Origin: a virus
DNA: 30,160 bases
Virus record (IMG/VR): IMGVR_UViG_3300031974_003726
Coordinates: 1-30,160 of that record
Strand: one strand, 5' to 3'
The notes under the pieces: generated by a model
The model's input: only the letters and a program-made list of their open reading frames with translations
Database searches by the model: none
What the model was told of the DNA's origin: nothing
Shown: positions 83 through 12,305 of the stretch, piece after piece
How positions within the stretch are numbered: position 1 is the first letter of the stretch
Layout of the letters: each line of letters begins with the position of its first letter
Made by a program: the position numbers and the translations under genes

Positions 83-643
83 TTACTTCTTGACGATCTT
101 CATGTCTTTTAGAATGGTTGCCATATCACTTTGAGCAAGGCGAATTGTACCATCTCGATCAAATAGTTTATATTTCATGCCACGTGGATTCTTTTCATCT
201 ACGAGAATAATACGTCCTACTTTTGACTTACCTACAATACGATGACCACTGGTGACTACAAGGCGAATTGGCTTTAATTGGCTTGCAATCGCATTACCGA
301 TCTTGACTTCTACGATACTTCCTTTTCGAAGTTTGTCATAGATGTCTTTTGCTTTGTCATTGTCCATGCTTTGTAGATTCTCACGAATGGCTTCTTCGCC
401 AATCTGTGTTGAAAGGTAATCTGCCATGCCATCAAGTTTGTCAATAGCGATTGCGACTTTGTTCGTCCACCATGAAGGTAGTGAGTCTTCATCGTCAAGC
501 CCTGACAGTCCTCTTTCCATCTTGTTCAATGCATCACGAGCAATTTTAATTTGATTTTTGGCAGATATAACGTCGTGATGACCACCTTCTGTGATGGTCT
601 CTTCATTGATCAAGCCACGAATTGATGATTCTAGATTTTTCAT
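83..643 (-). CDS. Conserved phage protein with WWTNK motif and capsid-targeting-like N-terminus
   Basis: A 186-residue protein of unknown function. Residues about 56-81 hold the stretch LPSWWTNKVAIAIDKLDGMA, which I recall as recurrent in hypothetical proteins of marine T4-like phages; that is recollection, not a search. The C-terminal 80 residues look like a small beta-rich domain. The N-terminus contains LINE-E (residues 11-15) and TITE-G (16-20), both matching the (L/I)-x-E consensus cut by T4 prohead protease gp21, so it may be a head-packaged protein. The ATG start is supported by AAGGA about 7 bases upstream. It is last in a three-gene operon, 9 bases after its neighbour, and a terminator follows. 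Coding is clear; function is unknown. Confidence 0.85.
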   Translation of the reverse strand: MKNLESSIRGLINEETITEGGHHDVISAKNQIKIARDALNKMERGLSGLDDEDSLPSWWTNKVAIAIDKLDGMADYLSTQIGEEAIRENLQSMDNDKAKDIYDKLRKGSIVEVKIGNAIASQLKPIRLVVTSGHRIVGKSKVGRIILVDEKNPRGMKYKLFDRDGTIRLAQSDMATILKDMKIVKK

Positions 644-976: not shown

Positions 977-1551
977 GGTCTGTCATCCTCTGTTGATCTG
1001 TTTGGCCCTCTCATGCCACCAAATTGATACGGGTCAATTGGGTAGCCAGCATAAGGGTAGGGTGTGTCGAGTGTAGGGCGCCTCTTGTTGATTGCTCGTC
1101 TTACGTCTTTTTCATACTTGAGTTTTCTTGAGAGTTTGTTGATTTCGTCGCCAACACCAGAGAAACCACCAAGTGATTCGTTCATGCCAGAGTTGAGGTC
1201 TTCGAATCTCTCTGTGATGTAATCAAGAAGATCTTCTGTGTTGGTTTCAAAGTAGTCAGAGACTTGACGTTCGGCTTTGAGATCATAATTCACAGGACCT
1301 CGACCCTCGTATGGTTGAACAAGTTCATTGACAACTTTTCTTTCCATTTCGCGCCAGTGCTTCTCGAACACTTTTCTTGCTCTTGCAAAGTTAAACTTTT
1401 GACCTTTTTGCTCATCAAGTTCTACAGATTCAGTCTTGCAATGACCAGCATTCAGTTTAGTCTTTTTCTTTCCTTCAGTCTTGCAATGACCAGCGTTTAG
1501 TTTGGCTTTTTTCTTCTCTTCTTCAAGAAGTTGTTTCTGTAGATAATGCAT
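973..1551 (-). CDS. Unknown protein with duplicated LNAGHCKTE peptide and LDE site
   Basis: A 192-residue protein of unknown function. After a basic, Lys-rich N-terminus, the peptide LNAGHCKTE occurs twice (residues 18-26 and 33-41) because of a 45-bp tandem duplication. It is followed by ESVELDE-Q (41-48), the same kind of peptide that separates the modules of the 894-residue protein encoded divergently at 1697. The middle (about 55-155) is charged and helical; the C-terminus is Pro/Gly/Tyr-rich. The ATG start is supported by CGGAG 7 bases upstream. It is the first gene of the left-end operon and is preceded by both a sigma70-like and a late-type promoter. I infer a virion-associated protein with a removable leader ending near residue 47. 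Confidence 0.75.
   Translation of the reverse strand: MHYLQKQLLEEEKKKAKLNAGHCKTEGKKKTKLNAGHCKTESVELDEQKGQKFNFARARKVFEKHWREMERKVVNELVQPYEGRGPVNYDLKAERQVSDYFETNTEDLLDYITERFEDLNSGMNESLGGFSGVGDEINKLSRKLKYEKDVRRAINKRRPTLDTPYPYAGYPIDPYQFGGMRGPNRSTEDDRP
1429..1518. repeat. Two-copy 45-bp in-frame tandem repeat
   Basis: Positions 1429-1473 and 1474-1518 are directly adjacent 45-bp copies, 38 of 45 bases identical by hand count; the first 21 bases of each copy are exact. The length is a multiple of three, so the reading frame is kept and LNAGHCKTE plus a Lys-rich linker appears twice near the N-terminus of the 973-1551 protein. Most of the differences are synonymous or in the linker, which suggests the peptide is retained by selection. 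Confidence 0.85.
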
Positions 1552-1696: not shown

Positions 1697-4381
1697 ATGC
1701 ATTGGAAGATGAAGCAAACACTCAATGAGAACAAAAATCACCACATCGACGAAACCGTGAAAACCGCGTTCAAAGATTTCGACATGGACTCAAGAGTCTT
1801 TTTAGCAAAACTCAAAAAGTTTGGCTTTGAAAAACAATACAAAAAAATGTTAAAAAACTTCGATAAGCACGCCAAACCAGGTGATGGTTTTTACTTTATT
1901 GATGGTGGTAGAGAACTTGGTTTTCAAGTTCACCCCGTGGCTGATATGATGATGGGGCCAAAGATCAAGAAACTTGGTGACACACAAGACTTAGGTGGTG
2001 GCAAAACTGCTAGACTCATCGCAATCAAAGAAGGTGTTCAGATTGACGAAAATAATGTGACTGTCAAGTTCGTTGTAGACGCTGATCAAAACTCATATGA
2101 GAGTATTACTCGTGATCCCAAACTTAAGAAACTACCAGGTTTTCTTGGCCTTCATAACATAGTATTTCAATCTCGCAAGAAAAAGGCTGTGTTCACATTT
2201 CGTAAGGAAAGGGGAAATTGGCCGAGGTTCGAGAAGTTGCTCAAGAAGCACGGCTTGAAATTGGTCGATACCATCTATGAAGGTTCTAAGAAACTTGATG
2301 AATCCAATGTTTACAACCCACCAAAAAATAGTTCTGCCTACTATGGAAAGAAAAGTTTTGCAATCGTGGATAGATACGGCAGCATCATTCGTGTTGGTTT
2401 GTCAGAAAAACAAGCCCGTAAATTAGTGCAGCCTGGTCAGATGGTTGATAATCTTCCTGGTGCAAAAGTTGGTCAGGTTCTCAAAAAAAATAATGTTCCT
2501 GATTTTTATCGAGAATCTGTGCATGTTGATGAGCAAGGACCTCTTGGTGGAGGTCTTACAAATCCAACTCTTCCATTTTTACCTCAAGTTGCTCAGAAAC
2601 AAAAAACAGGAAAATATCGTCCTGGCCGTCGAGAAATTGGTCGTCGAAGACCAGCACCTGGACTTGTTAATCCTGGTGGTCCCCCAATTCAATTTGAAGG
2701 ACTAGCAGCCCGTGACATACAAGGCATGATCAAGGGGTTAAACAAGAAAGCCAAGCAAGAGATTGCAGGTGTTCTGAATGACATGAACCTCAGTGGCTAT
2801 GGTGACTACGAAGCAAGAGCAGACAACGTTCATAAATTCAAACCTAAAGATTTGCTTAAGGCGATGAATAAGGTAATGAAACTTGAGCAGGCTAATATTG
2901 TTGAGTTCAATGATAAGTTTATGAAGACAGGCAAGTATGCCAGTAAACAAGACAAAGCACATTATGCCAAAAAACGAAAAGAGTTCGAACGAGAACTTAA
3001 AAAAGCAGGCATAAAATTCCACTTTGTTGCTGGAAATCAAAAAGGACCTGTCGAAGATACCTATTATGTTTCCTTTAAGAATAATCAAAAAGCACATCAA
3101 ATAGCAAACAAGTTGTTTGCTGGTGCAGTGTTTAGTTCAGAGATACGACGATTCGGCATCTCGGCTGTGAGCGAGGTTTCATTTTCTGAATTCAGTGAGT
3201 CTGTGCAACTTGATGAAGGCAGCACAATAGAATTTAAATTTAAAAACCCAATGAAAGCCGGTGCCTTCATGCGACGAATCATGCGAGATAAACTCGCAAG
3301 TGAAGTAGACCGATATGACGGGGATAGAAGTCCTGAAGAAATTGTTCAAGTCATCATGCACCCAAACGACTACGAGAGAAACGATATTGAAAGGTTGGCA
3401 AAGCAATACAAAGGTGAACTGCGTGAGGATCTACAAATTGATGAGATGTCTGCAAGAGATCACTATAGAAGATACAAGAACAAGAATCGTGTAACATCTA
3501 TCGACCGCGAGCGTTTCCCAAATCGTGAAAGAGAAGGTCTTGAAGGACCGTATCGCACCAAGAAAACGGGTCTGATTTATTACTATGATAGAAAGGCTGG
3601 TAAGTATTACGATCCACAAACCGACATGTACCTTAGCGTTGATGATATCATGGAAAGCATGGGCATCAATGAGCAAAAAGTAAGCACCTTTGTAGTTGAG
3701 TTAGATACTTGGCATAACCCAAAAAGATATGCTAATTTTCTTAAAGATTATGGTATTGTAAGGTCAGAAAAAGACTACACAATACAACGAAGAAAAGTGT
3801 CCTTTAAATACAAGCCTGTTCGTGGAGTTTCACTCAAACATATTGAACTATTAGGAACTGTGTTGAAAAATGTTGGTGGTAAATTTCGTAGAATCGAGGC
3901 AACTCCAGAAATTGAAAAAACGGCCAGACAAGCACACAAAAAAGCAAAGTTTATACGAGATATTGCTGATGAAGACCGTAAACCAATTAAAATTCCAAAG
4001 AATTTCTTTGATGTAGATTACGAAAAAATTCGCCGGGATCATGAGGATGCTGTAAGACGTGCGCAGGATGAAAGCATCAATGAAAGTGATCACTACAGCA
4101 AAAAAGATTTGTACACCGACAAAGACATTAAGAAACTAAGTAAAGCGTATGGCAATGAAAGTTACAAGGGTGGCTTTAGAGGTGACAAAGAAGATTTGCC
4201 TGGTGCAGTAAAGCAAATGCTTCGCTATATCAGTAACTACTCTAACAACGACTTGATAGTTATTGCTTTGGCTGACATTCCACATGCTTCAACACAAGCA
4301 AAAATAGAGTTAAAATTGCTCAGAGGCTATGAGATCAAAGGTCGACCACCAAAGAAAAGATCAGACTTCGTAAAAAAATAA
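1697..4381 (+). CDS. Multi-module virion polyprotein candidate with repeated (L/I)DE sites
   Basis: An 894-residue protein of unknown function built from small modules separated by near-identical acidic peptides. The peptides end in I-D-E19, I-D-E118, L-D-E202, V-D-E279, L-D-E507, I-D-E583, I-N-E659 and I-N-E796, several of them in the form ES-V-x-(L/V)-DE. Module lengths between them are about 99, 84, 77, 228, 76, 76, 137 and 98 residues. Several modules look like small alpha/beta folds with a beta strand straight after the site. T4 prohead protease gp21 cleaves after (L/I)-x-E, so I infer a head-packaged precursor cut into about eight peptides. Residues 280-335 are a Pro/Gly-rich linker. 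The N-terminus MHWK is shared with the proteins at 10243 and 11262. The ATG has AAGGA upstream and a late promoter at 1659. Alternatives are a baseplate or tail protein with repeated linkers. Confidence 0.85.
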   Translation: MHWKMKQTLNENKNHHIDETVKTAFKDFDMDSRVFLAKLKKFGFEKQYKKMLKNFDKHAKPGDGFYFIDGGRELGFQVHPVADMMMGPKIKKLGDTQDLGGGKTARLIAIKEGVQIDENNVTVKFVVDADQNSYESITRDPKLKKLPGFLGLHNIVFQSRKKKAVFTFRKERGNWPRFEKLLKKHGLKLVDTIYEGSKKLDESNVYNPPKNSSAYYGKKSFAIVDRYGSIIRVGLSEKQARKLVQPGQMVDNLPGAKVGQVLKKNNVPDFYRESVHVDEQGPLGGGLTNPTLPFLPQVAQKQKTGKYRPGRREIGRRRPAPGLVNPGGPPIQFEGLAARDIQGMIKGLNKKAKQEIAGVLNDMNLSGYGDYEARADNVHKFKPKDLLKAMNKVMKLEQANIVEFNDKFMKTGKYASKQDKAHYAKKRKEFERELKKAGIKFHFVAGNQKGPVEDTYYVSFKNNQKAHQIANKLFAGAVFSSEIRRFGISAVSEVSFSEFSESVQLDEGSTIEFKFKNPMKAGAFMRRIMRDKLASEVDRYDGDRSPEEIVQVIMHPNDYERNDIERLAKQYKGELREDLQIDEMSARDHYRRYKNKNRVTSIDRERFPNREREGLEGPYRTKKTGLIYYYDRKAGKYYDPQTDMYLSVDDIMESMGINEQKVSTFVVELDTWHNPKRYANFLKDYGIVRSEKDYTIQRRKVSFKYKPVRGVSLKHIELLGTVLKNVGGKFRRIEATPEIEKTARQAHKKAKFIRDIADEDRKPIKIPKNFFDVDYEKIRRDHEDAVRRAQDESINESDHYSKKDLYTDKDIKKLSKAYGNESYKGGFRGDKEDLPGAVKQMLRYISNYSNNDLIVIALADIPHASTQAKIELKLLRGYEIKGRPPKKRSDFVKK

Positions 4382-4391
4382 AGACACACGC

Positions 4392-4712
4392 ATGAAATCA
4401 TTTCTAGAATATTTTGATGAAGGCAAGCGTATACCCAAGACTCGTAAGAATCAAGACCCTGATACTCACAGCGATCTTTACACTGACGAAAATCCAAAAG
4501 GAACAATTCACGGTCTTGGGTTTAAAGATGTAAAAACCGCCGAAGCATCAGTCAAAAAAATTGAGTCATCAAATCGAACACATGCTCATAAAATTCAAGC
4601 AGCAATCGCCATGGAACAAAGAGCAAAGGTGATGGGCAAGAAAGAAGAAGCCGCTGTGTATCGAAAGTACATTGAAAAGATGAAAAAGATAACGAAAGAA
4701 AAGAACAAATGA
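4392..4712 (+). CDS. Conserved small phage protein (HSDLYTDENPKGT family)
   Basis: A 106-residue basic protein. The segment HSDLYTDENPKGTIHGLGF (about residues 27-45) followed by a helical AHKIQAAIAMEQRA region (about 65-78) is a combination I recall from many marine T4-like phages, always unnamed. The first ten residues, MKSFLEYFDE-G, resemble the T4 internal-protein leader MKTYQEFIAE-A in spacing and in the acidic residue at position 10, although Phe replaces Leu/Ile two before the Glu. The gene starts 10 bases after the 894-residue protein and overlaps the next gene by 4 bases (ATGA), so it belongs to the same late transcript. Function is unknown. Confidence 0.8.
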   Translation: MKSFLEYFDEGKRIPKTRKNQDPDTHSDLYTDENPKGTIHGLGFKDVKTAEASVKKIESSNRTHAHKIQAAIAMEQRAKVMGKKEEAAVYRKYIEKMKKITKEKNK

Positions 4713-5038
4713 AAGACTTCTACAATTACCTCTACGAACAAAGTCAACCAGCAGGAAGAATAGACTTCAGCAACATTGGTGACGTAGACAATCCTAACAT
4801 TCTTGTTCGTGGCTATGGTTCAATGACACTCAAAACATTGAACAGTCAGGTCGCAAAAAGACTTCGCAATCTTGCTGATCGGCTTGAAAAGAAAGGTGAT
4901 ACAGATTACCTTGCACGAGAAATGAGCGACGATGGTATCGTTCGTTTGTTCGTCGATGCAATCACAGCCGTTGAAAAAGAAATGAAGACACCATCAGTCA
5001 AAAGAAAGTTCACAAATCTCAAAAAGAAAATGCGATGA
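4709..5038 (+). CDS. Conserved small phage protein with T4-like capsid-targeting leader
   Basis: A 109-residue basic, mainly helical protein of unknown function. The motif GYGSMTLKTL (about residues 35-44) leads into an amphipathic helix AKRLRNLADRLEKKGD and an acidic helix ending in a Lys-rich tail. The leader MKDFYNYLYE-Q has L8-Y9-E10, exactly the (L/I)-x-E pattern and position seen in the T4 internal-protein leader. It overlaps both neighbours by 4 bases (ATGA at each end), indicating coupled translation in the late block. I infer a head-internal protein that would lose its first ten residues. Confidence 0.78.
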   Translation: MKDFYNYLYEQSQPAGRIDFSNIGDVDNPNILVRGYGSMTLKTLNSQVAKRLRNLADRLEKKGDTDYLAREMSDDGIVRLFVDAITAVEKEMKTPSVKRKFTNLKKKMR

Positions 5039-6149: not shown

Positions 6150-6755
6150 ATGCTCTCAGAAGAGAAAAAACTCATCGATCATGTACGAAGCGAATGCAAA
6201 GAACACGGCATTCGCTTTGTTCTTTCTAATCATCAGGCAGTAAATACAGGTGAGCGTTGCAGAGCATCAGGCTATTTCGATGAGACATCTCTCGTAGTGG
6301 CAAAAAAATCAAGCAAGTGGGTGCAAACACTTGCACATGAATACTGCCACATGTGTCAGTGGCTTGAAGGTGAGCCAAAATACACAGCAAAAACAGAAGA
6401 CGGTCGATGTCCATGTATGGTATTTCTCGAATGGGTGAATGGTATACATGATGATAAAGATCTTGCTTTTGATGCAATGAAAAAAGTAATCGAAATGGAA
6501 CGAGACTGCGAAATTCGAACAGAAAAATTGCTACAAGAGTATGGCCTTCTTCAGTGTCAGAATGAGATAAATACCTTTCGTGTTCGTGCAAATGCATATT
6601 TGTACTCACATTGGGTTTCGTTTCAAGAAAAAAGATGGCCAAAAGCAAGGTGGTCTACTTTGATTGATCCAGAAATGATGCCTAAAACATTTCGATGTAA
6701 ACCGCATGAAAAATGCTCTGCTCGAATCTATCAGCATGTGTCAAAAATCATGTAA
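6150..6755 (+). CDS. Zinc metallopeptidase-like protein (HEYCH)
   Basis: A 201-residue protein with LAHEYCHMCQW, giving an H63-E64-x-x-H67 zincin zinc site in a predicted helix. A downstream acidic helix (EMERDCEIRTEKLL, about residues 114-127) could supply the third ligand. It has many Cys residues, including CPC near residue 88. No signal peptide is seen, so it should be cytoplasmic or virion-associated. Small HExxH proteins are common in T4-like marine phages, but their substrates are unknown to me. It lies in the late block between two late promoters and has no ribosome site before its ATG. An inactive structural homologue is possible. Confidence 0.72.
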   Translation: MLSEEKKLIDHVRSECKEHGIRFVLSNHQAVNTGERCRASGYFDETSLVVAKKSSKWVQTLAHEYCHMCQWLEGEPKYTAKTEDGRCPCMVFLEWVNGIHDDKDLAFDAMKKVIEMERDCEIRTEKLLQEYGLLQCQNEINTFRVRANAYLYSHWVSFQEKRWPKARWSTLIDPEMMPKTFRCKPHEKCSARIYQHVSKIM

Positions 6756-8804: not shown

Positions 8805-9869
8805 TTGAAAAAAGCAAAAAAACTATTAGAGCAAATAATTAAAAATCAGATCGCAAAAGATACTGGAATTGGTTTAACCAAAACACAAGCAACTAAAAAA
8901 TTTGCGACTGATTCACCAGTCATTGCTCCTCCAGAAAGAATGTCAATGCCAGATGGTTCAGGTGGTTCAAATTCTCCTTATTGGGTTATTCTTGGATACA
9001 GTATTAATGGTACAACATTTTTAGAAAGACTAGTGGCGCTTGGTGTAGGTGAACCAGAAATTACTGTTCGTCTTGGACAACTTTTTACACCAGAGCAGTT
9101 GCGGGCGATTGCATTAGCACTTTCTTTTGATGCCGGTAGAGCCGATGCAGTTGCAGAGATACTTATAGAACTTATTGTGAAACAGCCAACAAGGGCGGCA
9201 ACCGACAAGCCATCTCCGTATGCTGTTGCTGGTATGAATATGACAAAGGCACAGGTAGCAGAGTTTGATTTGCTATTAAAACGTCTTTTGTTTTTGATTA
9301 ATCCTTCTTCTAATCTAGACTTTATTTCACAACTTCTTTCTTACCTAGAATTGTATTCAGGAGGTTTAGGTTTTATTAATGAAGATGGTGAGTTTGGTTT
9401 TATTTTAAACCTTTTCTTCGGAACGATAAGACGAGATATAAACTTTGATATTCTAGGTGATTTTACAATGCAAGAGTTAATAGAAGCCTTATTACGAGGA
9501 TCATTCACTGGCTCAGATAGATATCCACAAGAACTTTTAGATTTAGGATTTACCGAAGAAGATATTGACAATTTAAGACGAAGATTTTTCAATTATGATT
9601 CAGCATTGACAATCATCAGAAGAAATGACATGTTTAGTAATTTTCTTGAAGCAGGTCTGGGCAATCAATATGCAGAGTGGGTTAACAGCGGAGGTGATGT
9701 TGATGATTTGATTAAAATACTAGAAGACCGGGGGCATTTTCGTATATCTCTTAAAACTGGTCAATTGATTCCCGCAAAAGATAGTAATTTAGATTCATTT
9801 ACTCTAAATGCACTAATGCAAATAATTACACTGTTGAAGTTTATTCGAAATTTAGAATATATCATATAA
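8805..9869 (+). CDS. Large helical late protein B, TTG start
   Basis: A 354-residue protein of unknown function. It starts with TTG at 8805; AGGA at 8793-8796 is well placed, no in-frame ATG lies nearby upstream, and the predicted N-terminus MKKAKKLLE-Q has a leader-like L-L-E site. A Pro/Ser/Gly-rich stretch (about residues 40-60) precedes a helical body rich in Leu/Ile with INFDILGDF near residue 220, which may correspond to the ITFDV strand of its neighbours. Its relationship to proteins A, C and D is weaker than theirs to each other. A 43-base A-rich gap separates it from the preceding gene, and its stop overlaps the next ATG by one base (TAATG). Confidence 0.72.
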   Translation: MKKAKKLLEQIIKNQIAKDTGIGLTKTQATKKFATDSPVIAPPERMSMPDGSGGSNSPYWVILGYSINGTTFLERLVALGVGEPEITVRLGQLFTPEQLRAIALALSFDAGRADAVAEILIELIVKQPTRAATDKPSPYAVAGMNMTKAQVAEFDLLLKRLLFLINPSSNLDFISQLLSYLELYSGGLGFINEDGEFGFILNLFFGTIRRDINFDILGDFTMQELIEALLRGSFTGSDRYPQELLDLGFTEEDIDNLRRRFFNYDSALTIIRRNDMFSNFLEAGLGNQYAEWVNSGGDVDDLIKILEDRGHFRISLKTGQLIPAKDSNLDSFTLNALMQIITLLKFIRNLEYII

Positions 9870-10240
9870 TGAAATCTTACTTTAAACCACTTAAAAAAGT
9901 TTTGATGAAGATTAAGAATTATGACTTTATTCTTGATCTTGCACTTACAGATACGTCGCAAAGACTCGGTTTAATGTTTAGAAAAAGTATGCCAAAGAAT
10001 CGAGGTATGCTTTTTGTTTTTCCTGAAGAGCAACCAAGAAGTTTCACGATGAAAAACTGCAAAATGGATTTAGATATTCTTGGCCTTGACTCAAACGGCT
10101 ACGTCGTTGACAAACAAACCATGTATCATCGAACACAATCAGACTACCCAATTGACAGACCAATCATGTACGCAATAGAACTAAACTCAGGAGTTGCTGA
10201 CACAATTGGAATAAATATTGGTGATCAAATAGGATTATAA
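9869..10240 (+). CDS. DUF192 (UPF0127) family protein
   Basis: A 123-residue protein covering one DUF192 domain. The family signature is clear: GLMFRKSMPKNRGMLFVF (about residues 34-51), then FTMKNCKMDLDILGLD (59-74), GYVVDK, and the C-terminal MYAIELNSGVAD...GINIGDQI. The family is widespread in bacteria and archaea, often exported, and has no settled biochemical role. This copy lacks a signal peptide and begins with a basic segment. It starts inside the stop of the preceding gene (TAATG), so it is translated as part of the late transcript. A late promoter for the next gene lies within its 3' end. Why a DUF192 protein sits among late genes is unclear. Confidence 0.85.
   Translation: MKSYFKPLKKVLMKIKNYDFILDLALTDTSQRLGLMFRKSMPKNRGMLFVFPEEQPRSFTMKNCKMDLDILGLDSNGYVVDKQTMYHRTQSDYPIDRPIMYAIELNSGVADTIGINIGDQIGL
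10210..10217 (+). promoter_or_regulatory. T4-type late promoter inside the DUF192 gene
   Basis: AATAAATA near the 3' end of the DUF192 gene. Expected start is near 10223, followed by AGGA at 10231-10234 and the ATG at 10243. It would give the 10243-12305 paralogue pair an internal late start. Confidence 0.5.
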
Positions 10241-10242
10241 CT

Positions 10243-11235
10243 ATGCATTGGAAACAAAGACTACTACTACTACAAGAAGTAACGATACCACCACCAAGAA
10301 ATTTTGGTGGAAGACCGACACCGATTCGTCCTGGTCCTCGACCAAAACCACCAAAATTGGGAAGAACCCCAACTGGCCAGTTTGTTCCTATTCCAGATAT
10401 TGACACTACAATTCCTCAAAGTGGTTTCTTTGGGGACATGATTCGTTTGATTGCTCAAATTTATAGAGATCAACCAAACAGTCCAATAAAAACGGCGTTC
10501 TTCCGTCAGTTTTCTGAATTTATAAAATCCACTGGCTCTTCATCAGAAATTACCAGTCAACAATTAAATGACCTTCTAAGACACCTAAGACTTTTAGGAG
10601 ATTTTGGCACAGATGTCCAAGTAAATCTAGGAAACCCAACAAGACTTCTTGAATTAATAACCAGTTACAGCGATATGAATCCAGCAGAACTACTACAGTT
10701 TCTTGCCTTGCGTTACGGACTCACCGTCGAAAGACTCGATATCAAAATTAATGCTCAAATAACATTTGATGTGTACAGAGATTGGATGGGTTGGATCGGA
10801 GAAAATGGTCCATTTAACAAAATTATGGAGGATCTTGCAGGCATTGAACCAGAACCACCAAGATACATTTTTGACGAACTTGGCAATCTTCAAAGCATAC
10901 TACTTGGTCTTGGAGGTGAAGGAGCAAATGCAGATGCGATGAGAGTGATACGAGATCAACTTCTTGAATCTATCAACTCAGGTAATGTAGTTGGCATTCT
11001 AGAAAATATGATTAGGTATCACGCACAACTTACAGACATGATGAGTGATATGGTTGATCTACTTGACACCGTAGATTTACCCGCCGACGTTAGAGAAGAA
11101 GTAATTCGTAATTTAGAAACTTTCTATGAAAACTTTACGGCGCCACAATTTGGGGATCCTGACACACCATTCGGTGCTCTAATTAGATATCTAATGGGTG
11201 AAGACTTGCCACCTGAGTTTGAGATTATCAGATAA
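10243..11235 (+). CDS. Helical late protein C, MHWKQRLLLLQE leader
   Basis: A 330-residue protein of unknown function. The leader MHWKQRLLLLQE-V gives L10-Q11-E12, a gp21-like cleavage site. Residues about 15-50 form a Pro/Arg/Gly linker, followed by GQFVPIPDIDTTIPQ and a long helical domain ending in a FYENFTAPQF motif and an acidic tail. It is a clear tandem duplicate of the next gene: the first 12 residues are identical and similarity runs over the whole length, including PNSPIKTAFFRQFSEF, LLQFLALRYG and ENMIRY. AGGA 8 bases before the ATG and a late promoter at 10210 support expression. Probably a structural or head-internal component; no catalytic motif is visible. Confidence 0.8.
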   Translation: MHWKQRLLLLQEVTIPPPRNFGGRPTPIRPGPRPKPPKLGRTPTGQFVPIPDIDTTIPQSGFFGDMIRLIAQIYRDQPNSPIKTAFFRQFSEFIKSTGSSSEITSQQLNDLLRHLRLLGDFGTDVQVNLGNPTRLLELITSYSDMNPAELLQFLALRYGLTVERLDIKINAQITFDVYRDWMGWIGENGPFNKIMEDLAGIEPEPPRYIFDELGNLQSILLGLGGEGANADAMRVIRDQLLESINSGNVVGILENMIRYHAQLTDMMSDMVDLLDTVDLPADVREEVIRNLETFYENFTAPQFGDPDTPFGALIRYLMGEDLPPEFEIIR

Positions 11236-11261: not shown

Positions 11262-12305
11262 ATGCATTGGAAACAAAGACTATTGCTTTTACAAGAAAAG
11301 ATGATACCACCACCGAGAAGATTTTTTGGTGATAAACCAACACCAATTCGTCCTCGTCCTGGAGCAAAACCATCAAAAATAGGAAGAACCCCAGCCGGAC
11401 AGTTTGTTCCTATTCCAGAAATTGACATAACAATTCCACAAAGCGATTTCTTTCGTGACATGGTAGAACTGATTGCTACTATTCTACAAGATCAACCAGA
11501 TAGTGCGATCAAGACGGCATTCTTTCGGCAGTTTTCTAAATTTTTAAATCCAAATCAAATGGATTCCCCATCAGTTAGCAGTCAACTACTCAATGATCTT
11601 CTTCGTTTCATAAGAGCCTTAGATTTTGCTTCACCTGATGTTCCTGCAAATGTGGGTGATGGACAAAGTATTTTTAGAATACTGTTGCAATATAGTGATA
11701 TGGGCGAAGAAAATCTATTACAATATCTTGCTTTGAGATATGGTATTGGTGTACGTTATGACGAACTTAATCTTAAAGTAAATTGGGAAATAAGTTTTGA
11801 TGTCGATCAAAGGTGGAATAGTTTTATTATGAACAATGCTGCTTTGGATGATTTTTTAGATTCCTTTATGAATCTTCAACCTCGACCAGACAATTACGAT
11901 GAGATTTTAAGTTACATCTCTAACATTCAAACTATACTCTCTGGTTTACCAGGCGATGCTTCCCAAATGTCACAGGCCATTGAAGGCATTCGTGAAAGTC
12001 TTATCTTGTCTATAAGACAAGGCGACATTCTCGGTGTTCTTGAAAACATGATTAGATATCAAACACAACTTACAGATATGTTTAGCAATTTAGTTGAATT
12101 GCTAGACAATGTAGATATGCCTAGCGACGTTCGAGATGAGTTGTATCGTGACCTTACACGTTTCTATGAAAACTTCACAGCGCCACAATTCGAAAACGAT
12201 GACGGTCCATTTGGTGTTCTAATCAGATATCTATTGGGTGAAGATCCACCACCTGATGATCTGAGCGACTATATGTACCCTTACGATCCAGATGAGTTGG
12301 GTTAA
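11262..12305 (+). CDS. Helical late protein D, tandem paralogue of C
   Basis: A 347-residue protein, tandem paralogue of the gene at 10243. The leader MHWKQRLLLLQE-K is identical up to the putative cleavage site, after which the linker and helical body diverge moderately. It has a 26-base gap from its paralogue with AGGA before the ATG, and no late promoter of its own that I can see. The C-terminal tail (PPPDDLSDYMYPYDPDELG) is longer and more acidic than in the partner. It is the last gene of the plus-strand block; its TAA shares bases with the TAA of the convergent methyltransferase gene, and there is no terminator between them. Confidence 0.8.
   Translation: MHWKQRLLLLQEKMIPPPRRFFGDKPTPIRPRPGAKPSKIGRTPAGQFVPIPEIDITIPQSDFFRDMVELIATILQDQPDSAIKTAFFRQFSKFLNPNQMDSPSVSSQLLNDLLRFIRALDFASPDVPANVGDGQSIFRILLQYSDMGEENLLQYLALRYGIGVRYDELNLKVNWEISFDVDQRWNSFIMNNAALDDFLDSFMNLQPRPDNYDEILSYISNIQTILSGLPGDASQMSQAIEGIRESLILSIRQGDILGVLENMIRYQTQLTDMFSNLVELLDNVDMPSDVRDELYRDLTRFYENFTAPQFENDDGPFGVLIRYLLGEDPPPDDLSDYMYPYDPDELG

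Follow-up and report, generated by a model that had tools for sequence, protein, structure and literature searches.

In phage T4, the prohead protease gp21 cuts after L/I-x-E, and the core proteins gp22, gp67 and gp68 are cut into fragments (PMC9026906). The internal proteins of T4 have sizes of 8-20 kDa, are basic and carry a 10-aa capsid-targeting sequence (CTS); these targeting peptides of about 10 residues are processed at residues 8 and 10 (PMC9026906). In T4 IPIII, replacement of the P1 Glu by Asp prevents processing and leaves targeting intact (PMC9026906). In SPN3US and phiKZ, long propeptides of head proteins are cleaved several times (PMC10052503), and the polyvalent proteins of phages and plasmids deliver many domains in one polypeptide to the host, for which the authors drew a polyprotein analogy (PMC5512222). 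Thus, gp21 processing, core-protein fragmentation, targeting peptides, multiply cut propeptides and injected polyvalent proteins are already known. Nothing equivalent to a cargo polyprotein in which head-protease sites separate the parts, or to its motif, was found in the open-access literature searched.

The stretch of DNA analysed here (the window) is a 30,160-bp IMG/VR fragment, and one of its late genes codes for an 894-residue protein that can be compared with each of these systems. Like T4 IPI, IPII, IPIII and Alt (PMC9026906), it has a short N-terminal peptide ending in L/I-x-E and small basic bodies that vary between phages, but T4 uses one gene per protein with one site (two in Alt), whereas about nine bodies and many sites are predicted in this chain. 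T4 gp22, gp67 and gp68 also contain several gp21-type sites per protein, and relatives of the window modules lie at the gp67/gp68 position; however, the T4 fragments are small peptides that are mostly lost, whereas the predicted fragments here look like folded cassette modules. The SPN3US and phiKZ proteins are likewise cut several times by a Glu-specific prohead protease, but what is cut there is a propeptide, most of which is removed, and no cassette cargo is involved. Polyvalent proteins differ in having an embedded peptidase and large enzymatic domains, whereas the sites in the window protein fit a separate head protease and its modules have about 50-130 aa.

Modules and sites of the 894-residue protein

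The ORF at 1697-4381 is real, and its product carries (L/I/V)(D/N)E motifs whose last residues are E11, E19, E118, E202, E279, E507, E583, E659 and E796. These nine copies compare with 1.30 +/- 1.12 in shuffled sequences (0 of 5000 reached nine), and there are five copies of the 7-mer E[SDG]-phi-x-[LIV]-[DN]-E, against 0.00 in shuffles. Per 1000 aa, this protein has 10 motifs and the other window proteins have 3. Most of the sites fall between domain-sized modules, as listed here (a slash inside a sequence marks a presumed cut).

1697-4381, plus strand: gene for the 894-aa punctuated polyprotein, with an ATG start
1697-1753, plus strand: residues 1-19, MHWKMKQTLNE/NKNHHIDE/, a predicted capsid-targeting propeptide (an inference) with L/I-x-E sites E11 and E19
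1754-2050, plus strand: module 20-118, ending in IKE112 and QIDE118
2051-2302, plus strand: module 119-202, ending in IYE195 and KLDE202, with a homologue in L279
2303-2533, plus strand: module 203-279, ending in ESVHVDE279, exactly missing from the L279 homologue
2534-2905, plus strand: segment 280-403, a Pro-rich part and the helical module 337-401, with the likely site IVE403
2906-3217, plus strand: module 404-507, ending in ESVQLDE507
3218-3445, plus strand: module 508-583, ending in LRE577 and QIDE583, the sole acidic piece
3446-3673, plus strand: module 584-659, OCRE-like (phrog_13298), ending in IME653 and GINE659
3674-4084, plus strand: module 660-796, ending in ESINE796
4085-4378, plus strand: C-terminal module 797-894

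The initial annotation had named eight of these sites, all of which held, and E11 is added. It overlooked one likely site, ANIVE403/FND, within the long 280-507 stretch. The predicted cargo pieces have 76-137 aa. No clean site was seen at the junction between 280-336 and 337-403. The protein contains 14 L/I-x-E in total, and E237 sits within a module. The presumed scissile positions meet the L/I-x-E criterion for a gp21 substrate except at E279, one of the nine (L/I/V)(D/N)E sites, which has V at P3. The DNA and codons of the motifs differ among the copies, with P1 and P3 kept, from which we infer that the constraint in the window acts on the protein. The chain is very basic (net charge +53), and eight of the nine predicted cargo pieces have a pI of 9.2-10.1, the exception being 508-583 (pI 5.2).

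A Pfam and PHROG search of the polyprotein gave the OCRE-like module as the sole match, with none of the known effectors and peptidases of polyvalent proteins, such as ParB, primase, MPTase or ART. Module 119-202 shows a beta-alpha-beta-beta-alpha-beta pattern at low confidence. Structure prediction had been proposed in the initial annotation as a check on the modules. Single-sequence AlphaFold of the full 894-aa protein was uninformative (pLDDT 39.8), but the model of module 584-659 (pLDDT 75.7) was confident in its core (86-90), with the terminal GINE site in a disordered tail. This fold had no significant match in the PDB and matched only OCRE-like phage proteins in BFVD, so no function follows from it.

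The N-terminus MHWKMKQTLNE meets the criterion of T4-type CTS proteins, a peptide of about 10 residues ending in L/I-x-E. In addition, [LIF]xE occurs within residues 6-18 in 12 of 15 late genes and in 5 of 19 other window genes (p=0.0024). CTS-like starts and a further motif were located in the following neighbours.

4392-4421, plus strand: CTS-like N-terminus MKSFLEYFDE of the next gene (4392-4712), whose L279 homologue starts MKSFLEYLTE
4709-4738, plus strand: CTS-like N-terminus MKDFYNYLYE of gene 4709-5038
10243-10278, plus strand: CTS-like N-terminus MHWKQRLLLLQE of gene 10243-11235
11262-11297, plus strand: CTS-like N-terminus MHWKQRLLLLQE of gene 11262-12305
1411-1431, minus strand: ESVELDE motif, residues 41-47 of the neighbouring gene 973-1551, preceded by a tandem KLNAGHCKTE repeat

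Cassette exchange and site conservation among relatives

The whole 894-aa protein found no relatives when used as the query against viral contigs, and tblastn against 50,697 phage records matched only the 600-651 module; no cultured relative was found for two other polyproteins. Relatives were reached through single genes and modules. G001, found via UvsX (87% identical), has a 91% identical copy of window module 334-401 at its end, between flanks that differ. L279, found via module 337-401 on a 50.9-kb contig, has a homologue of 415 aa in which ..YEGSKKLDE directly joins QGPLGGGL.., and window module 203-279 is exactly absent between E202 and E279. At the DNA level, positions 532-605 and 830-1020 of the window gene match 319-392 and 386-576 of the L279 gene with 97% identity, and the overlap of the two matches, which is the indel junction, falls in the L-D-E/V-D-E codons. 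Similarly, P0001 and P0002 (from G036 and G034) are 99% identical where aligned and differ, motif to motif, by a 103-aa module lost and a module of about 92 aa gained. Both start with a cytidylyltransferase-like domain that has cyanophage homologues, one of which was found in virions of S-SM1 (PMC3037559) and one in S-CREM2 virions, where the authors did not exclude carry-over (PMC10665884). Cytidylyltransferase-headed polyproteins at L102:3687-6365 and L111:16429-19077 contain a module duplicated in tandem, with modules exchanged between genomes that are nearly identical.

Conservation of the sites was examined at loci selected by module rather than by motif. Searching viral contigs with a profile of module 584-659 returned 314 relatives, of which 80 were kept, and the window-like type, defined by MSA[KR]xHY..GLEGPY, occurred behind 16 distinct upstream contexts belonging to 11 unrelated groups. 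P1 was E in 16 of 16 contexts and P3 was L in eight, I in six, V in one and M in one, while P2 and P4-P12 were variable and no 7-mer was common to all. These two fixed positions equal the published gp21 specificity, L/I-x-E (PMC9026906). The initial annotation had proposed aligning homologues to see whether the sites are kept; they keep the P3 aliphatic and the P1 Glu, and the surrounding sequence and neighbouring modules change. A second, more distant OCRE-like group (L229-L278) begins with 'xxEGYxV', often after V/A/M-x-E; it could possibly represent a lineage with a different head-protease preference. One polyprotein (L140:1207-2793, minus strand) contains both a core-like domain and an OCRE-like module.

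A DNA pattern of two motifs 62-72 codons apart gave viral matches at 32 and 10 loci. Punctuated proteins of this class are present in dozens of contigs, with about thirty distinct proteins carrying 2-8 motifs, mostly ESVELDE. As a negative control, the two-motif pattern gave 12 loci in 257 Gb of bacterial genomes, and the inspected ones were mainly low-complexity acidic or leucine-rich repeats. Motif conservation among the pattern-selected loci was set aside as biased, and we relied instead on the module-found loci, the P9 and depletion tests described below, and the cassette junctions. The thirty proteins were divided into 142 modules in 74 families, and 27 of the 30 multi-member families occurred in more than one context. 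Homology ended no more than 6 aa from a motif at 91 of 284 ends, against a null mean of 37 and a maximum of 59 in 2000, although the ends are not fully independent. The inner modules had a median of 76 aa, and without the motif 84 of 84 were net positive, compared with 41% of control windows. Some modules are also free-standing with CTS-like starts, as in KVP40.0154 and the 65-aa MKSF/MKTF proteins of G001 and L279. The free-standing 65-aa proteins at L085:16200-16397 and L279:4992-5189 consist of MKSFIEYLDE or MKTFLEYLNE and a RYGxxxGKGVMYAVAT module; they resemble a polyprotein-embedded module, and a similar module occurs in cyanophage S-B05 and near syn9 gp114, itself a module-bearing protein.

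If gp21 acts on such chains, the modules are expected to avoid internal L/I-x-E. Inside 58 non-redundant modules, [LI]xE occurred 7 times against 21.9 expected, a three-fold depletion (P~2e-4). The control patterns [LI]xD, Ex[LI], [LI]E and [LI]xxE were not depleted, and the [LI]xE ratio in control proteins was 1.21. Furthermore, P9 was aliphatic in 69 of 97 contexts of relatives (background 0.21, p=3e-26), and P10-P15 were near background. In the window protein, doublets occur at IKE112/IDE118, IYE195/LDE202, LRE577/IDE583 and IME653/INE659. Judging from the sequence alone, the long motif resembles two sites in a row, [LIV]xE/SVxLDE/, with L/I-x-E cuts six residues apart, and the second cutting site would account for the invariant Glu at P7 of ESVELDE. 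Within ESVELDE-rich relatives, the motif DNA had an identity of 0.953, against 0.772 expected from random synonymous codons. Because this DNA is unusually conserved, the linkers probably double as recombination points, and we infer that part of the motif invariance in these relatives reflects recombination.

Prohead core genes, head protease and rival readings

The initial annotation had made a gp21-type protease in the genome a test of its reading. No S77 protease is present on the 30-kb window fragment. Among related contigs longer than 79 kb, a gp21-type S77 protease was found in nine of ten, the exception being G036, in which none was found on the 92-kb fragment. It is present in G022, G042, G045, G047 and G066, in the contig of L282 and in every one of the six records of the last set that reach 79 kb. 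The gp23 proteins of relatives have L-x-E at the T4 cleavage position (LNE, LVE, LME, LQE, LRE).

Punctuated genes lie in the gp20-gp21 region of G047, G051, G064 and G066, which in T4 codes for core proteins that gp21 cleaves. At this place G022 has a plain gene for 144 aa whose ends match. L281-L283 have a 498-aa gene between gp20 and gp21, in which a 59-63% homologue of window module 337-401 comes right after ESVELDE; the window module is the helical part of segment 280-403 and is 91-100% identical in G001 and L279. This 498-aa gene is followed by the gp67-position, gp21, gp22 and gp23 genes. The C-terminal domain of several large polyproteins matched the core gene alone among 5770 ORFs (E=0.01; reverse 1.6e-4; hhalign 94.6%). 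The window protein has no core-type C-terminal domain, and its gene is not itself between gp20 and gp21. T4 gp67 is annotated as a precursor to internal peptides, but a profile of the core N-terminus of relatives ranked T4 gp67 only among noise, so homology to T4 gp67/gp68 was not supported by this search. A gp22-like scaffold of G022 (L083:2148-3104) carries MESVDVDE.

The reading of the protein as a protease-processed polyprotein, already made in the initial annotation, is supported by the sequence, and cassette exchange at motif codons, depletion of internal L/I-x-E and modules in the gp20-gp21 gene are evidence beyond it. We regard a cargo polyprotein processed by the prohead protease as likely, with cleavage, packaging and module functions inferred; there are no proteomics on any phage with these proteins. 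In the proposed mechanism, the short N-terminal targeting peptide would bring the 100-kDa chain into a T4-type prohead core, and the gp21-type (S77) protease of the phage would cleave the linkers behind L/I/V-x-E, in many cases at two points separated by six residues. About nine independently folded, small, mostly basic proteins (20-118, 119-202, 203-279, 280-403, 404-507, 508-583, 584-659, 660-796 and 797-894) would be freed inside the head. By analogy to the T4 internal proteins, they would probably be retained with the DNA and pass into the host; presence in virions, retention, ejection and function all remain inferred. The module with its site would be an evolutionary cassette, which the polyprotein would acquire, lose or shuffle internally, and would trade with free-standing internal proteins and the gp20-gp21 core gene. 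A bolder reading is that T4-like phages have a class of cassette cargo polyproteins that has not been described before, made up of dozens of small, basic, interchangeable modules with double sites between them, which are loaded behind a targeting peptide or inside the core gene and cut during head maturation. We consider this joint claim fairly likely.

It remains possible that the protein belongs to the prohead core and is cut up by gp21, as T4 gp22, gp67 and gp68 are, with pieces that mostly leave the head and modules that serve assembly rather than delivery. Such proteins lie at the gp67/gp68 position in relatives, a C-terminal domain is common to polyproteins and the core gene, and T4 core fragments are mostly removed (PMC9026906). 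However, dozens of unrelated folded basic modules, freely exchanged and also found free-standing with CTS-like starts, fit cargo better, and one polyprotein is headed by a virion-detected enzyme domain. That the chain works whole, uncleaved, with the linkers as flexible spacers, seems unlikely to us. No cleavage data were found in the literature searched, and module 584-659 has a linker tail that is predicted to be disordered, as in a plain spacer, but a spacer needs neither the fixation of only the gp21 positions P1 and P3 across unrelated contexts nor the selective loss of L/I-x-E within modules.

The motif might instead be a short recombination site for cassettes, with the protein sequence incidental. 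The 95% identity of ESVELDE DNA within proteins, compared with 77% expected from random synonymous codons, and the indel junctions in motif codons favour this, but the window motifs vary in DNA and codons yet keep P1 and P3, the 16 contexts have no common 7-mer, and the [LI]xE depletion and the gp20-gp21 location are left unexplained. We doubt this explanation as a replacement for processing, though it probably holds in addition to it. Least plausible is docking, in which the repeated acidic peptide would bind the basic core or capsid and target the chain. The motif is acidic on basic modules and MESVDVDE occurs in the gp22-like scaffold of G022, but in window-type contexts the residues other than P1 and P3 are free, and docking is very unlikely.

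If the cargo polyprotein reading is true, tailed phages would have a true polyprotein strategy, with many injected proteins obtained from one gene in equal copy number and without an N-terminal targeting signal on each. As the linker would also be an exchange point, cargo sets could evolve by cassette swapping. The sequence rule, an aliphatic P3, Glu at P1 and a double site spaced by six residues, could reveal hundreds of unannotated virion-cargo domains in environmental phages, and these would be candidates for roles in early takeover of the host or in counter-defence. The arrangement would also offer a way to load T4-type capsids with several proteins.

Other genes of the window

On the minus strand, the window carries what we take to be T4-like replication genes, UvsX, gp46/47-like, a gp41-like helicase and a gp55-like sigma factor, read from the translations and unconfirmed by profile search. 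Rfam and tRNA searches of the window gave no features. The plus-strand genes 10243-11235 and 11262-12305 are tandem paralogous late genes that have the MHWK start in common with the polyprotein and are otherwise unrelated to it. Also in the late cluster, 9869-10240 (plus strand) codes for a DUF192-family protein (Pfam E=1.7e-25), with similar genes in G001 and L279. The product of 6150-6755 (plus strand) has weak similarity to SprT-like metalloproteases, with an HEYCH motif and a homologue in L279. The N-terminal 'HDVxSAK..SLPSWWTNK' module of the gene at 83-643 (minus strand) also begins a punctuated protein in L168.
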